From positions 1 to 41,519 of the forward strand of contig NZ_MQTZ01000029.1 of assembly GCF_001939115.1 (NCBI RefSeq): DNA of 41,519 nt, given 5' to 3'. This document shows positions 16,681-28,187 of this stretch, in pieces. The stretch comes from Leptolyngbya sp. 'hensonii'. GTDB lineage: Bacteria > Cyanobacteriota > Cyanobacteriia > GCF-001939115. The stretch's first letter is position 1; each line of letters opens with the position of its first letter. The position numbers and the translations under genes were made by a program. The notes under the pieces are model-generated. The model was not told where the DNA came from. It saw nothing but the letters and a program-made list of their open reading frames with translations, and did not search any database.

Positions 16681-17880
16681 ATGTTTAAAGTACTGATTAT
16701 TGATGATGACTCAGCAACCCGAGCGCTGCTGAAGAGAACGCTTCAAAATCAGGGGTATGAGGTTTTTACCGCTAATCATGGTGAAGAGGGGATTGCGCTA
16801 GCGACTCAATTGCGGCCTGCCCTGATTGTTTGTGATCTCGTCATGCCGGGAATCGATGGGTTAGAAGTTTGCCAGTTGATCAAATCTGATCCGGAGCTCT
16901 CTACCAGCTTTTTTCTCCTCTTAACCTTTCGGGGGGCGAAGGAAGGGTTGATTCAGGGCTTGGATAAGGGAGCGGATGATATTCTGGCGAAACCGATCGA
17001 GATGAGCGAGTTGAAGGCTCGGGTACGGGCAGGGTTGCGGCTCTATCAGCTCACCCAGGATCTGCAGGCAAAAAACCGAATGCTGCAGGGATTGACTCAG
17101 GATCTACAACTGCAGAAACAGGTTCTAGAGGCCGAATTTACGGAAGCCTCAGAATATGTCCGATCGTTGCTGCCTTCTTCCCTGACGGGTTCTGTCACCA
17201 TCGACCCCCGATTTATCCCTTCCCGCCAATTGGGGGGAGATTGCTTTGACTATGACTGGCTGGATCCAGATTATCTGGCCATTTACTTGTTGGATGTTTC
17301 GGGGCACGGATTAGGAGCAGCTCTGCCTTCCGTGTCAGTTCTGAACATGCTCCGCTCCCAGTCTCTCCCAGATGCCAATTTGTATCAGCCGAACCATGTG
17401 CTGATGGCCCTGAATGAAGCCTTTCAGATGACAGACCAGAATGAACGCTACTTCACCATCTGGTATGGGGTTTATAATCGGCTGCAGCAACAACTGGTTT
17501 ACTCCAGTGCGGGCCATGCTCCGGGAATTCTAATTAACCGATCGGTAGATGGAACGGTGACGGCCAAACAGTTGAGAACACCGGGAATGCCGATCGGCAT
17601 GTTTCCAGATAGCAAGTTTTCCAATGCCTATTGCCGGATTGAACCCGGCAGTAAGCTCTATATCTTCAGTGATGGTATTTTTGACTTACTCCAACCCGAT
17701 GGCAATCTCTGGGGATTGCATGACCTGATCAATCTGTTGGTCAGTTGTGCGGAGAGGGGCAATACCAACCTGGACAGCATCCTGGAACAAATCCAGAATC
17801 TGGCTCCCAAAAAAGCTTTTGATGATGATGCCTGTCTACTGGAGATTACGTTTAGCGCTGATCCTGCGCTAGAGGATTAG
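16681..17880 (+). CDS. Response regulator with PP2C (SpoIIE/RsbU-type) phosphatase output
   Basis: 399 residues. Receiver at 1-120 (IIDDD acidic pocket, Asp52 in VCDLVMPGIDG, Lys104 in LAKP); coiled linker about 120-165; PPM/SpoIIE-like Ser/Thr phosphatase about 170-393 with metal-binding Asp in GGDCFDYD and LLDVSGHGLGAA, then SAGHAPG, FSDGIFDL and the late FDDDACLLEI. Such proteins typically dephosphorylate an anti-sigma-factor antagonist (STAS protein) when the receiver is phosphorylated. No STAS gene is adjacent. It follows the hybrid kinase in the same direction with 76 bases between, which suggests an operon and a direct phosphotransfer route. Confidence 0.94.
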   Translation: MFKVLIIDDDSATRALLKRTLQNQGYEVFTANHGEEGIALATQLRPALIVCDLVMPGIDGLEVCQLIKSDPELSTSFFLLLTFRGAKEGLIQGLDKGADDILAKPIEMSELKARVRAGLRLYQLTQDLQAKNRMLQGLTQDLQLQKQVLEAEFTEASEYVRSLLPSSLTGSVTIDPRFIPSRQLGGDCFDYDWLDPDYLAIYLLDVSGHGLGAALPSVSVLNMLRSQSLPDANLYQPNHVLMALNEAFQMTDQNERYFTIWYGVYNRLQQQLVYSSAGHAPGILINRSVDGTVTAKQLRTPGMPIGMFPDSKFSNAYCRIEPGSKLYIFSDGIFDLLQPDGNLWGLHDLINLLVSCAERGNTNLDSILEQIQNLAPKKAFDDDACLLEITFSADPALED

Positions 17881-17983: not shown

Positions 17984-19423
17984 ATGGTAGATGTCCCTTC
18001 TGATCCTCGTATGCAATGTCCAGTCTGTGGGCATCCGGAGATTGAGGCCAAGGGCGTGGATTGGTCAGGGAACCCACGCTACTGTTGTCGATCGTGTGGA
18101 GAGATTTTCCTGGTGCAGGTCGAAATGACAGATGCTGATCTACCACCAGAGCCAGAACCCAAACCCCGCAAACCATTTCCCTCCCCCTGGCGATCGATCC
18201 CCATCCTTCCGATAATTCCCTATCTGCAGCAACTCGGACAGCGAAGCCTGCCTGGATTAACAGAGGCAGGAATTGCCCTGCTTTTGGGCAGTTTGCTCTT
18301 CGGTATTATTCACTGGCTGGCTCCTCCAGAAACCTTCTACGACTATTACCTGCGTCTGGCCCACAGTTTTCTCGATGGTCAACTTTGTCTGTCCGAAAAT
18401 CCGAGCTGGCTGAATGAACTGGTTCCTATTCCTGGTAAGGGGTACTGTGTCGTCTATCCGATCGCCCCAGCCCTGTTCCTGCTGCCCCTGGTCAAGGTGT
18501 TCCCGACAATCACCCAATCTGAGGCTGCCCATCTCCTGTTCGGACTGGCTGCTCTGGCGATTTACCTGTTCTTTCGTAAACAGCAATCCTCCCGCTTTCG
18601 TTCCATCAGTCTCGCCCTAATCTGGAGCTTTGCCACCATTTTCTTCCCCATGAGTGCTGTCGGGAGTGTCTGGTATATTGCCCAGACCATGGGGGCAACC
18701 TTTGTCTGGCTTTTCCTGCTCTGCTTCCAGCCCCGCCCCGGTGGGTTCCTGTTTCTTTCAGGTTTGTGCCTGGGGATAGCTGCTGCTGCTCGATTACCCC
18801 TCAACCTGCTGGTTCTCTATGGCCTGGTGCTGCTTTACCGGGAACTGGCTCCCCGCTGGTCCCTGTTGCTGAGATCGACCAGCATATTCTTCGCAGGCTT
18901 CCTACCCCTGTTCCTGCTGCAACGTCTCTATAACTACGCCCGTTACCAGACCTTTGCCGATCGGGGCTATGCCCTGATTCCAGGCAAGTTTGCTGAACCT
19001 GAGTTTCAGCATGGCCTCTTCCATCCTTTCAACCTTCCCAAACACCTGCGGGTTCTCTTTTTGAACCTGCCTAAAGGAGTGGACCACTGGCCGTATCTGG
19101 TACCCTCCCACGAAGGACTATCTATCCTGATTACGTCTCCGTTCCTGGTAGTGGCATTTTGGTGGCTGATCAAAAGCCGCCGCTGGCCAGAGGTAGGGGC
19201 GATTCTGACGATTATGGTCATTGAAATGTGCCATGGAACGGTTGGGTACAGTCAGTTTGGCTATCGATTTGCCCTGGATGTCTATCCCCTGCTATTTCTG
19301 GCCCTACCTCCTATCCTGGAGTTACGATCGCTGCGCTCCTGGCTCCTGGGCCTCATAGGTCTGTCTGGCTTAGTAAATTTGTGGGGCTTGCTGGCCTTTC
19401 GGTACCGTTGGTTCATTTGGTGA
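17984..19423 (+). CDS. Polytopic membrane protein with N-terminal zinc ribbon (GT-C-like), first of tandem pair
   Basis: 479 residues. The first 40 residues hold a treble-clef or ribbon-like zinc site: Cys12-x2-Cys15 and Cys35-x2-Cys38 (CPVCG ... CRSCG). A Pro-rich linker follows (PPEPEPKPRKP), then about ten membrane helices from about residue 90 to 475. The first outward loop contains YDYYLRLAHSFLDGQL, and the layout resembles GT-C glycosyltransferases (dolichol- or polyprenyl-phosphate-sugar dependent), but no catalytic motif proves this. An internal ATG at 18011 would also keep the zinc site. The next gene starts 7 bases after the stop and has the same architecture, so the two are tandem paralogues. 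Confidence 0.78.
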   Translation: MVDVPSDPRMQCPVCGHPEIEAKGVDWSGNPRYCCRSCGEIFLVQVEMTDADLPPEPEPKPRKPFPSPWRSIPILPIIPYLQQLGQRSLPGLTEAGIALLLGSLLFGIIHWLAPPETFYDYYLRLAHSFLDGQLCLSENPSWLNELVPIPGKGYCVVYPIAPALFLLPLVKVFPTITQSEAAHLLFGLAALAIYLFFRKQQSSRFRSISLALIWSFATIFFPMSAVGSVWYIAQTMGATFVWLFLLCFQPRPGGFLFLSGLCLGIAAAARLPLNLLVLYGLVLLYRELAPRWSLLLRSTSIFFAGFLPLFLLQRLYNYARYQTFADRGYALIPGKFAEPEFQHGLFHPFNLPKHLRVLFLNLPKGVDHWPYLVPSHEGLSILITSPFLVVAFWWLIKSRRWPEVGAILTIMVIEMCHGTVGYSQFGYRFALDVYPLLFLALPPILELRSLRSWLLGLIGLSGLVNLWGLLAFRYRWFIW

Positions 19424-19430
19424 TGCTGTC

Positions 19431-20834
19431 ATGAATTGTCCTGCCTGTGGCTATCCCCATCTCCGCCCCCAGGGGCAGGATCCGGTCGGAAACCAGATCT
19501 TCTCCTGTCCCGCCTGTGGGGAAACCTGCATGGCTGTAGCCGAGGATCTGGAAGAAGAGGCTCCGGCAAATTCCCAACTGGAACGGCGAATGCGCTTCCA
19601 ACCTGCTTTCCCCCAGATCCGATGGCCAGCCTTTTCCCGCTTTTCCGGAGGAGCATTCCTGCGAGCATTGTTCCTGATTTTGGGTTGTATGGCTCTGACT
19701 ACAGCCCTCTCCTACTACGCTGCTGGAGGATTTCGCACCTACTATTCCCCAGTCTTTCATCTGCAGGCCCAGGCGATGTTGCGAGGACAAACGGCCCTAG
19801 AGGTGCCTCCTGAATGGACGATCGACCTGATTTCCTTCCACGGACAGCATTTTCTGGCGATTCCACCCCTGAATGCGTTCCTGGTCCTGCCGTTCGTTGC
19901 CCTGTTGGGGGTCGATTTCCCCGAAACCCTCTTTGCTCTGATCCTTTATGCCCTCAACCTGATCGTGCTGTATTGGACTGTGGCAACGGTGGCGAACGAT
20001 CGGGATACCCTGCAGCGCAGTCTCCTGTTCTGCTTTCTAGCCCTGGGGACGACCCTGTTCACCTGTGCTGTGATTTCCAGCCCATCTTTTAACGCAGTGC
20101 TAGGCAGTTGCCTGTTCCTCTCCGCTGCCTGGTTGACCCTCTACCAGGCTCAGACCTTACCGCATCATTTGCTGGCCATTCTCCTGCTGGCGATCGCTGC
20201 CACAGGACGCTGGCATCTGGCCCTGCTGCTACCGGTTTTCATCCTGTGGGCCTGGATGCAGCCGGTTCCTCGTCGCTGGGCAGTTCTGGCCATCCTGGCT
20301 GTCCCCATGGGACTGTTTCTGGCCTTCGTCGGCTGGTGGAATTGGGCTAGATTCGGCAATCCGTTCCAGCTCCGGTATGAAGAGCATGCCTACGGCGCTT
20401 TCTTTGCCGAAGAGATTCGGAAATATGGCTTTCGCAACCTACGGTATATCCTGCCCCACCTGTATCATGGCGTCCTGGCCATCCCCCGCCTGGTGCCTGA
20501 TTTCCCCTTTTTCGTCTACGACGATCGAGGCAATGGGGTGCTGGCCCTCAGTCCCCTGTTTGCCTATACCTTGGTCAAACGCCCCTGGGATAGCTGGGAT
20601 CGGCTGGCGTGGCTCTGTATGGCGATCGTGGCCATCCCCGTCTTCACCCACTTTTCTACCGGCTGGGTCCAGTTTGACTACCGCTACTTCCTGGATTTCT
20701 TCCCGTTTGCTGTTTTCTTACTGTTGCGATCGTCCGTCAATCCCATCCGCTGGCTACCTCTGGCATTGATTGCCCTATCTTTCTGGTTCCATGGTTTTGG
20801 GGTTCTGAAGCTCATTAAGGGCTGGGGGATGTAG
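19431..20834 (+). CDS. Polytopic membrane protein with N-terminal zinc ribbon (GT-C-like), second of tandem pair
   Basis: 467 residues. Zinc ribbon at the very N-terminus (Cys3-x2-Cys6 and Cys26-x2-Cys29; CPACG twice), a polar linker, then about ten membrane helices from about 78 on. The first outward loop has YYSPVFHLQAQAMLRGQTAL followed by FHGQHFLAIPPLNAFLVLP, a pattern close to GT-C family membrane glycosyltransferases. It starts 7 bases after the preceding gene, so they are probably co-translated; the two proteins may act as a pair or on related substrates. The zinc ribbon would sit in the cytosol. Confidence 0.78.
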   Translation: MNCPACGYPHLRPQGQDPVGNQIFSCPACGETCMAVAEDLEEEAPANSQLERRMRFQPAFPQIRWPAFSRFSGGAFLRALFLILGCMALTTALSYYAAGGFRTYYSPVFHLQAQAMLRGQTALEVPPEWTIDLISFHGQHFLAIPPLNAFLVLPFVALLGVDFPETLFALILYALNLIVLYWTVATVANDRDTLQRSLLFCFLALGTTLFTCAVISSPSFNAVLGSCLFLSAAWLTLYQAQTLPHHLLAILLLAIAATGRWHLALLLPVFILWAWMQPVPRRWAVLAILAVPMGLFLAFVGWWNWARFGNPFQLRYEEHAYGAFFAEEIRKYGFRNLRYILPHLYHGVLAIPRLVPDFPFFVYDDRGNGVLALSPLFAYTLVKRPWDSWDRLAWLCMAIVAIPVFTHFSTGWVQFDYRYFLDFFPFAVFLLLRSSVNPIRWLPLALIALSFWFHGFGVLKLIKGWGM

Positions 20835-22806: not shown

Positions 22807-23673
22807 ATGATAATCCAGTGGTTGATTGATCCCTTCGCTTTTTTTGCCGTGCCCAAACCTTTACCTCCCAGGCCCAAGTCCTATCTCAAGCCCTCTGTAT
22901 TCTGGGGAATTCGTCAGGGGTTTCCGGTGTGGCTGTCCATCCTGCTGATTGCGACAGCCCTGGGCCTACCGTTGCTGGCCTGGACGATCGCTAGCCTCAG
23001 CCAGTGGGTTCCGACCATGTTCCTGCCCACCCCCCTGACGGTGCTGCTGTCTGGTATCCAGATGTTCCGGGACGAAGACCTGATGCGGGATATCCTCGCC
23101 AGTTGTGGGCGAGTACTCCTGGGATTTCTGGCAGCGGCTCTGGTGGGGATTCCGATCGGCATTCTCATGGGCACCTTCAGCAGCATGGAACGGTTGTTTA
23201 TCCCGATCGTGGGCACGGTTCGCTATATGCCCGTGGCTGCTTTCGTCCCGCTGATTATCCTCTGGGCCGGTCTGGAGGAACTCTCTAAAGTCGTCATCAT
23301 CTTTATGGGCATTGTCTTCTTCAATGCCCTGATGATTGCGGATGCGGTCAAGTTTATTCCCAGTGAGATGTTGAATGTGGCTTACACCCTGGGGGCCAAG
23401 CGCCACCAGGTGTTGATGCGGGTGATTTTTCCGGCAGTGATGCCCAGCATCATCGATACCCTGCGGGTGAACGTGGCTGGAGCCTGGAACTACCTCGTGA
23501 TCTCGGAACTGGTGGGAGCCGATCGGGGGTTGGGCTTCCGAATTGTGCAGGCGCAGCGGTTTGTCCAGACCGATAAGGTGTTGTTCAGCATTATTGTAAT
23601 TGGGGCGATCGGGCTACTGACGGATTACCTGTTCAAGCTCCTGGCCAAGATGATCACACCCTGGGCTGAATGA
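22807..23673 (+). CDS. ABC transporter permease (nitrate/sulfonate/taurine type)
   Basis: 288 residues with about six membrane helices. The cytosolic coupling loop near residues 190-220 (MLNVAYTLGAKRHQVLMRVIFPAVMPSI, the EAA motif) contacts the ATPase. Family wording VPLIILWAGLEELSKVVIIF and AWNYLVISELVGADRGLGF is that of SsuC/TauC/NrtB permeases (BPD_transp_1). The start ATG at 22807 is 29 bases from the ATPase start on the other strand, so one short region must hold both ribosome sites and overlapping promoters. Its last 60 bases are antisense to the IS5 remnant that abuts the gene. Confidence 0.9.
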   Translation: MIIQWLIDPFAFFAVPKPLPPRPKSYLKPSVFWGIRQGFPVWLSILLIATALGLPLLAWTIASLSQWVPTMFLPTPLTVLLSGIQMFRDEDLMRDILASCGRVLLGFLAAALVGIPIGILMGTFSSMERLFIPIVGTVRYMPVAAFVPLIILWAGLEELSKVVIIFMGIVFFNALMIADAVKFIPSEMLNVAYTLGAKRHQVLMRVIFPAVMPSIIDTLRVNVAGAWNYLVISELVGADRGLGFRIVQAQRFVQTDKVLFSIIVIGAIGLLTDYLFKLLAKMITPWAE

Positions 23674-23689
23674 AGATTTGGGGTAGATC

Positions 23690-24050
23690 GTTAATTTACG
23701 CCCACTGAGATTGCCGCCAAAGATCGTTTTGAAACGAAACATGGTGGTTTCAGCAATCGAGCGACGATGATACCCAGAGTCACGCTTCCAACGCTGGCGT
23801 CCATGCTTGTGGATCGAACCCAGGTTCTCGTCGCGTGGATGGGGCTTGTCGTTGCGATTGCCATGCTGCCAAATCTTGGCATCCTTGCGGAGCGGAATCA
23901 CCGCTTTGGCTCCTTTGGCTTCAATGTGCAACTTGCCCCACGTCCGTCGCTTGCTCACTCCGTGCTGACGGGTCTTCCACTCCCCTTCGCCATCCACTTT
24001 CACCCCCGTTGAATCCACGACTACATGACGAGCACCCTCCTTTGGCACGC
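23690..24050 (-). pseudogene. IS5-family transposase remnant with internal deletion
   Basis: The frame contains HVVVDSTGVKVDGEGEWK-RQHGVSKRRTWGKLHI, the region of the first catalytic Asp of IS5-family (DDE_Tnp_1) transposases. It then joins directly to AKGAKAVIPLRKDAKIWQHG and SIAETTMFRFKTIFGG, the C-terminal block with the catalytic Glu. The usual intervening part with the second Asp (about 60-70 residues) is missing, and the frame runs out of homology at about 23690. The open frame itself continues (24093 to 23614) into the permease gene by chance. It cannot be active. Confidence 0.8.
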
Positions 24051-24053
24051 GGT

Positions 24054-24242
24054 TGCCTGCATCAACGCATTCCCACGATAGAAGAATTGGCACAGCAAGT
24101 CTTAGCGTTGGTTGCAGAACGTCATGAGCAACGCATCAAAATCAACTGGCAGTTTCCGATTGAAACTGCTCGGGGCACACTCAGTCGTCACTACGACACG
24201 ATTCGACCTGACCCAGTTGGAGTGAAATCATCAGATACTTAA
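24054..24242 (+). pseudogene. IS630-like transposase C-terminal fragment
   Basis: The frame reads LHQRIPTIEELAQQVLALVAERHEQRIKINWQF then ETARGTLSRHY before TAA at 24240-24242. This is the tail seen in IS630-family transposases (QRI-...-ERN...K-NW-F---AR--L-R-Y). Nothing upstream in frame belongs to it: the sequence to the left is the IS5 remnant on the other strand. So it is only the last 60 codons or so, cut by the IS5-type element or a later rearrangement. Confidence 0.6.
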
Positions 24243-27113: not shown

Positions 27114-28187
27114 ATGACGATGCGAATTCTATTGACGGCTGACCCGGAAATCCCTGTTCCCCCGCCTCTGTATGGGGGTGTGCAACGATTGGTAGATACC
27201 CTGATTTCCTTGCTGCAGGCCAAAGGACATCCGGTAGGTCTGATAGCCCATCCCGATTCCACCTCTACCGCCGATCGCTTTTTCCCGTTCCCCGGCACGG
27301 CATCTCAGCGTCGGTGGGATACCTTGCGGAACATAGCCGCCATGGGGGCAGCAGTCCAAGCCTTCCAACCCGATGTGGTGCACAGTTTCTCGCGACTGGT
27401 TTACATGCTACCTTTTCTGACCCGTTCCCTGCCCAAGGTGATGACCTATGAGCGCCAGCCGACTCCCCGAGCCGTGCAGTGGGCCGCTCGTCTGGGGGGT
27501 GACTCTCTGGTGTTTGCCGGATGCAGTCACCATATTAGCCGTGCTGGACAGGCAGCGGGGGGAACCTGGCGCACAGTCTATAACTTCGTTGAACTGGAGA
27601 CCTATACCTTCCAGCCAGCCGTGGCCCCAGATGCGCCGCTGGTGTTCCTCAGCCGTCTGGAGCGGATTAAGGGAGTCCATACGGCGATCGCCGCCGCTCG
27701 TCGGGCTGGTCGGCGGTTGTTGATTGCCGGGAACCGGGTCCACAGTGACGAAGGGGAGGTTTACTGGCAAACCGAAATTGCCCCCTATCTGGGCCGGGAG
27801 GGGATTGAATATGTGGGACCAGTCAACGATGCCCAGAAGAATGAATTGCTAGGACAGGCTGTAGCCATGATTGTCCCGATCGAGTGGGAAGAACCCTTTG
27901 GGATTGTGTTTACCGAAGCCCTGGCCTGTGGCACTCCTGTCATTGCCTGCCCCCGGGGAGCTGTGCCTGAGATTGTCCGTCCTGGAGTGGATGGCTTCTG
28001 GGTCAACTCCGTTGAGGATGCGGTGCTGGCAATTGCTGCCCTGCCTACCCTAAACCGGCATGCCTGTCGTCAGCGGGTGGAAGAGCAGTTTTCTGCAGCA
28101 GCGATCGTCAACCAGTATGAACAGCTCTATCAAAGCTTAATTATGCGCAATTCCAGCCCCCTCATGGGACGGCAAGTTGTCGCATAA
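27114..28187 (+). CDS. Glycosyltransferase family 4 (GT-B)
   Basis: 357 residues. N-terminal Rossmann half begins ILLTADPEIPVPPPLYGGVQRLVDTLISLL, the acceptor-side glycine-rich loop of GT4 enzymes. The C-terminal half has VFLSRLERIKGVHTAIAAARRAG and the donor-binding EPFGIVFTEALACGTPVIAC with GAVPEIV. GT4 enzymes move a sugar from a nucleotide sugar with retention of configuration; the sugar and acceptor are open. Start ATG 27114 or the second ATG at 27120. It stands alone and is followed directly by an intrinsic terminator. Confidence 0.9.
   Translation: MTMRILLTADPEIPVPPPLYGGVQRLVDTLISLLQAKGHPVGLIAHPDSTSTADRFFPFPGTASQRRWDTLRNIAAMGAAVQAFQPDVVHSFSRLVYMLPFLTRSLPKVMTYERQPTPRAVQWAARLGGDSLVFAGCSHHISRAGQAAGGTWRTVYNFVELETYTFQPAVAPDAPLVFLSRLERIKGVHTAIAAARRAGRRLLIAGNRVHSDEGEVYWQTEIAPYLGREGIEYVGPVNDAQKNELLGQAVAMIVPIEWEEPFGIVFTEALACGTPVIACPRGAVPEIVRPGVDGFWVNSVEDAVLAIAALPTLNRHACRQRVEEQFSAAAIVNQYEQLYQSLIMRNSSPLMGRQVVA

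Follow-up and report, generated by a model that had tools for sequence, protein, structure and literature searches.

Transposase-type zinc ribbons on tandem membrane proteins with a predicted GT-C glycosyltransferase fold in the cyanobacterium Leptolyngbya sp. 'hensonii'

GT-C glycosyltransferases such as ArnT, PMT, the ALG enzymes and PimE act on the outside and use lipid-linked donors. A stretch of 41,519 nucleotides from Leptolyngbya sp. 'hensonii', here called the window, carries two adjacent genes, A and B, whose products resemble these enzymes (ArnT, Pmt, ALG12/ALG3, OST/PglB, AftB and PimE) in predicted fold over about 276–350 aligned residues. However, identity in those alignments is only 7–14%, their bodies have no assigned Pfam family, and both carry an extra N-terminal zinc ribbon and linker. 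A weak match of the bodies was found to the putative glycosyltransferases LA_3751/LA_3752 (NF047440), with E-values of 0.0011 for the B protein of genome G143 and 0.037 for A, and with scores of 12.8–17.9 bits against a cut-off of 200 (G and L numbers are our handles for genomes and loci).

The ribbon itself has the four-cysteine spacing and the G-x4-G-x3-Y-x-C type pattern of the IS1/IS1595 transposase N-terminal zinc-binding domain (NF050000; Pfam Zn_ribbon_InsA, PF03811). Unlike in the transposases, it sits here on a predicted membrane enzyme, and no transposase DNA-binding and catalytic parts follow it. In eukaryotes, Arv1 has a role in GPI mannosylation. Excerpts of the published record describe it as having an N-terminal zinc ribbon in the cytosol, followed by membrane helices (PMC4631934); the likeness to A and B is one of layout only, and no kinship is claimed. 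The literature listings and abstract openings searched named no zinc ribbon on a GT-C glycosyltransferase.

The original prediction, made from the sequence alone, had described tandem genes 7 bases apart, each with an N-terminal four-cysteine ribbon. Open reading frame coordinates, spacing and cysteines were all confirmed:

17984–19423, + strand: gene A, 479 aa, with zinc ribbon, linker and predicted GT-C-fold body
18017–18097, + strand: zinc ribbon of A (Cys12, 15, 35 and 38; NF050000 score 25.4 bits)
19431–20834, + strand: gene B, 467 aa, with zinc ribbon, linker and predicted GT-C-fold body
19437–19517, + strand: zinc ribbon of B (Cys3, 6, 26 and 29; NF050000 score 21.1 bits)

The gap lies between the stop codon of A (19421–19423) and the ATG of B (19431), on the same strand. 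The ribbon motif reads CPVCG...CRSCG in A and CPACG...CPACG in B. Whole-protein shuffling produced a C..C-x10-25-C..C pattern within the first 60 residues only 12 (A) and 8 (B) times per 200,000 shuffles. A and B are paralogues (24% identity, E = 3e-18), and in the window's own genome a query with A matched these two genes alone. Because all 12 other ribbon-bearing GT-C genes listed begin with M-x-C-P, the true start of A may be 18011 rather than 17984, giving a protein of 470 aa.

AlphaFold2 models of both proteins were built from 34 related proteins and reached a mean pLDDT of 84.9 (A) and 88.1 (B). Each has three short ribbon strands, then a low-confidence linker and a helical membrane body. 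In the B model, block means over ten residues are 87–92 for the first three blocks, where the ribbon lies, and drop to 47–61 in the linker. A GT-C fold had been guessed from the letters, with structure prediction proposed as the check, and the models bore the guess out. Among solved structures, GT-C chains made up all of the 50 best rows for A (Z 21.1 to 11.3) and 47 of the 50 best for B (ALG12, ArnT, Pmt and OST; Z 21.5–11.5); the 48th row for B, prestin (Z 5.3), was the first unrelated chain. Taken alone, Foldseek left both models without a match at E ≤ 0.001 (best E-values of 1.1e-3 for A and 3.5e-3 for B), with GT-C chains at the top of both lists. The assignment is based on the VIA-align rows together with these leading Foldseek chains. 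A sequence search of A and B against solved structures matched nothing, and the bodies had no Pfam match at E up to 1 and fell into no named Pfam GT-C family (PMT/GT39, GT87 and others). On the models, the GT-C glycosyltransferase fold of both bodies is well supported.

One acidic residue occurs in every one of the 34 aligned family sequences (33 Asp, 1 Glu):

18416–18418, + strand: Glu145 of A, in the column of the family-wide acidic residue
19824–19826, + strand: Asp132 of B, located in the model's first large loop, the near-invariant family acidic residue

The other residues kept throughout are, in B numbering, Pro154, Arg260, Asn304, Arg307, Gly367, Pro375, Gly411, Arg418, Asp422 and Pro425. 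Many relatives have a further acidic residue immediately past helix 1; B has none there, so catalysis by B is not assured. Either acidic position may be the catalytic one.

The original prediction did not mention the transposase-type nature of the ribbon. The NF050000 scores of A and B lie under the 28-bit cut-off of that model, which was passed by the B-family protein of G143 (30.7 bits) and a 619-aa protein of G075 (30.5 bits); NCBIfam and Pfam alike indicate an IS1/InsA transposase ribbon. Foldseek with the B model returned Rpb9/C11 ribbons among its matches. The four cysteines are conserved across the ribbon-bearing members. The ribbon is an IS1/InsA transposase-type module, predicted to bind zinc.

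A class-wide ribbon search covered 388 genomes; its list of best matches ended near E 1.3e-8, with loci for some of these, and weaker ribbon-GT-C proteins may have been missed. The other matches inspected were transposase frames, a tyrosine-recombinase-like protein (G162, L137:192–1787) with a ribbon of the same kind, and a protein that reads as NYN-type (G050, L005:1495–2769) with an N-terminal ribbon of the same transposase type. Ribbons of this type also occur in over a dozen short transposase frames of the window's genome, several of which lie at contig ends.

As for the bodies, a five-protein model found matches (E ≤ 1e-5) in 16 of the 388 class genomes, mostly Pseudanabaena. Scanned with B alone, genome contigs yielded no relative; with alignment A4 they yielded 48 loci. 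For alignments A6 and A7, 32 of these were taken; the 16 dropped had a wrong frame or doubtful start, several of them high-GC Chloroflexi, or a short match. Remoter body relatives occur in Chloroflexi and Patescibacteria-type MAGs, and no ribbon was found on these GT-C bodies (ORFs of at least 180 aa scanned in the non-cyanobacterial loci sampled).

The B family has nine genes, in the window and in G136, G143, G150, G178, G184, G218, G051 and G075. They form one clade, with window B sister to the Pseudanabaena genes (9 rows, 100/100). The ribbon is broken in G051 and absent from G075. In G051, its coding sequence is present and out of frame near a run of A (L009:1257–1372), which may be an assembly error, or a real or phase-variable break. 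The original prediction had counted on conserved ribbon cysteines among homologues: this held for B, as all four are kept in seven of the nine family genes, and failed for the A-like genes of Pseudanabaena, none of the seven having a ribbon. A itself is hard to place, its branch being very long; with this fork open in the tree, A was not adopted as an orthologue of the Pseudanabaena A-like genes. A check for recurrence of the gene pair, likewise proposed earlier, was borne out in part: A-like and B-like genes lie within ~1.7 kb of each other in G051, G143 and G178, with a methyltransferase gene between them, but only the B member bears a ribbon.

A ribbon model of nine rows, including window A, window B and the G075 protein, was then run on 38 Pseudanabaena-family genomes. 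It gave 11 matches of at least 56 bits in 10 genomes, all in long membrane proteins, and no further match above 41.3 bits down to E 1e-7. Four of the 11 were outside the model (G295, G252, G037 and G218:C47). Six of the ribbons precede B-family bodies and three precede PIG-V-like bodies (G295, G252 and G037); the others belong to the 619-aa protein of G075 and an 882-aa protein of G218, the latter a GT87 part joined to a PIG-V-like part. The GT87 part passes its Pfam cut-off; elsewhere among the non-B bodies 'GT-C-like' is our reading, and so is 'PIG-V-like', taken from the sequence itself; for these bodies the family searches gave a sub-threshold match to a cell-surface glycopolymer family. 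The PIG-V-like bodies of G037 and G218 are 64% identical. At least four different kinds of GT-C-like body thus carry the ribbon in Pseudanabaena, for the most part at a single locus that also holds GT2, PMT and GT87 genes:

L013:11295–13154, L145:2239–4884, L149:8752–10125, L150:10087–11481, L151:5278–6663, L147:7918–9333 and L148:7623–9230: ribbon genes with different GT-C-like bodies at the Pseudanabaena locus

Pfam names for this locus come from G075 and G051 (PMT = GT39), and elsewhere the genes were recognised by their sequence starts. In G295, G252, G037 and G218, the ribbon gene and a VTT-domain gene are arranged head to head, and PMT, GT2 and GT87 come after the latter. The 619-aa ribbon gene occupies that slot in G075, where the ribbon-less B gene lies further along. 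In G143 and G178 (and, with the ribbon broken, G051), a methyltransferase gene and an acyltransferase gene lie between the B ribbon gene and the same PMT/GT2/GT87 block. The locus of G136 is partial, at a contig end, and the B gene of G184 has a different setting. Bordering the Pseudanabaena glycan locus is a very long protein that starts with MSDSKQSRKLNRFF or a near variant (L149:14457–19001, and the matching end of L147, L148 and L183).

Ribbon-less versions of these bodies were also found. The same slot is filled in G212 by a ribbon-less protein of 588 aa that shares 65% identity with the 619-aa body. In other cyanobacteria, the PIG-V-like homologues at all 18 loci counted are without the ribbon, two of 20 having been excluded from the count (L153, the query, with the ribbon present, and L154, where the locus border cuts the G218 ribbon gene, which therefore read as ribbon-less). 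Such homologues show the ribbon to be an addition.

Although borne by four kinds of body, the ten GT-C ribbons of Pseudanabaena group in a single clade (SH-aLRT 93). Between bodies they agree at 15–24 of 33 positions, against 9–16 of 33 with transposase, NYN and recombinase ribbons, and an 'INF'-like linker motif common to all ten proteins is absent from window A and B. Of the 33 positions, 14 are identical between the two window ribbons, 8–13 between these and the Pseudanabaena GT-C ribbons, and 10–15 between these and other ribbons; in the tree the window ribbons pair (SH-aLRT 82) among transposase ribbons. A model of 26 transposase-type ribbons scored window B 31.0 and A 36.8, versus 14.9 and 23.3 for a model of the ten Pseudanabaena ribbons. 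A single fusion behind the window and Pseudanabaena ribbons was not adopted, given the higher transposase-model scores and the pairing of the window ribbons. Because the window ribbons pair together and fall among transposase ribbons, the fusion of ribbon and GT-C body probably occurred at least twice, with the window's ribbon recruited separately, although 33 columns are a weak basis for this. The B tree taken alone would favour an ancestral ribbon, lost in G075.

What the ribbon does is a separate question. The fold, the ribbon type, the conservation of the ribbon in B and the presence of one ribbon on several Pseudanabaena GT-C-like bodies were computed directly. We tentatively propose, at somewhat less than an even chance, that A and B are inner-membrane GT-C glycosyltransferases whose cytosolic ribbon docks them to a partner. 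Their likely donor would be a polyprenyl-phosphate sugar, with transfer at the outer side of the membrane; the GT2, PMT and GT87 genes of the Pseudanabaena locus are the context for this. The IS1/InsA-type ribbon would no longer serve transposition and would act as a protein docking tag, keeping the enzyme beside a cytosolic partner of the same pathway; the first candidate would be the GT2 synthase, encoded at the Pseudanabaena locus, that would charge polyprenyl phosphate. The ribbon is taken as cytosolic because it precedes helix 1, given the known GT-C topology. Recruitment of a partner, already raised in the original prediction, is plausible and gains support because different GT-C bodies carry the same ribbon. 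That several sugar enzymes at a single locus have similar tags points to a shared plug and not to a part of the catalyst. Counting against docking, the ribbon is missing from the B protein of G075 and the same-slot protein of G212 and broken in G051, and A and B do not adjoin PMT, GT2 or GT87 genes in the window's genome.

Those two ribbon-less proteins also fit an alternative that we hold to be unlikely, in which the ribbon is a passive 5' coding leader from a transposase gene, aiding translation start or membrane insertion or anchoring recombination during body exchange, with no docking. Its IS1 type and the sharing of one slot and similar 5' coding DNA by several bodies also agree with a leader. 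The codon patterns speak against it. In seven same-family pairs, ribbon dN/dS was 0.03–0.25 (own Nei-Gojobori script, 34 codons), and in four of the five pairs where both could be computed it was lower than that of the linker. In G037/G295 it was slightly higher (0.25 versus 0.22); the ribbons of G184 and G218 were without any difference. The top value, 0.52, came from two proteins with different bodies (G218_882 and G218_B). These patterns indicate that the Pseudanabaena ribbon is under selection. Retention of the cysteines in most B genes is a further argument against a leader, as is the age of the body exchanges, which look old because the between-body ribbon pairs are mostly at or near saturation at synonymous sites. 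Docking to a common cytosolic component is the best explanation because the tag is under selection, on different bodies and within one glycan locus.

The surroundings of A and B bear on another reading. A hybrid histidine kinase gene and a response regulator gene lie upstream:

16681–17880, + strand: response regulator with SpoIIE-type phosphatase domain, upstream of A, with no demonstrated link to it

This two-component signalling context, though circumstantial, and the conserved cysteines would suit a zinc- or redox-responsive switch, in which zinc loss or cysteine oxidation alters the linker and hence the activity or stability of the GT-C body. We consider this doubtful, more so than the leader, since a common partner would explain at least equally well why one ribbon is shared by different GT-C bodies at a single locus, and no additional sensor part was seen. 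Finally, a role in which the ribbon has kept its nucleic acid binding, holding mRNA or DNA at the membrane, is very improbable: the same type does occur on transposases and on the recombinase-like and NYN-type proteins, but the linkers show, by eye, no counterpart of the helix-turn-helix that comes after the ribbon in InsA, and in neither protein is the 40-residue stretch ahead of helix 1 strongly basic (5 K/R and 3 D/E in A; 5 K/R and 6 D/E in B).

Downstream of B, on the opposite strand, the translation reads as a quinone-reductase-like ORF, and positions 23614–24093 (- strand) look from their translation like a DDE transposase remnant. Pfam analysis of ten further window ORFs revealed a group-1-type glycosyltransferase (27114–28187) and no PMT, GT2 or GT87 gene among them. 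On another contig than A and B, the window's genome has a PMT homologue (53% identity) with a neighbour that looks VTT-like by eye. Because of this pair of genes, the pathway of the Pseudanabaena locus may exist in the window's genome too, away from A and B.

The widest form of the docking proposal is that cyanobacteria recruited a transposase ribbon at least twice independently, that the tag and not the body sets membership of a lipid-linked glycan assembly complex, and that enzymes swapped at one locus onto a constant plug, the ribbon, change the surface glycan; taken as a whole, we think this unlikely. Pseudanabaena offers natural comparisons of tagged and untagged proteins, namely the B proteins of G143 and G075, and the 619-aa protein of G075 and its G212 homologue. 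If the ribbon is a docking tag, it would help to address a poorly understood matter, namely how GT-C enzymes working outside the membrane are coordinated with the cytosolic enzymes by which their lipid carriers are charged, and it would be a transposase domain reused across several enzyme bodies to organise enzymes, not to handle DNA.
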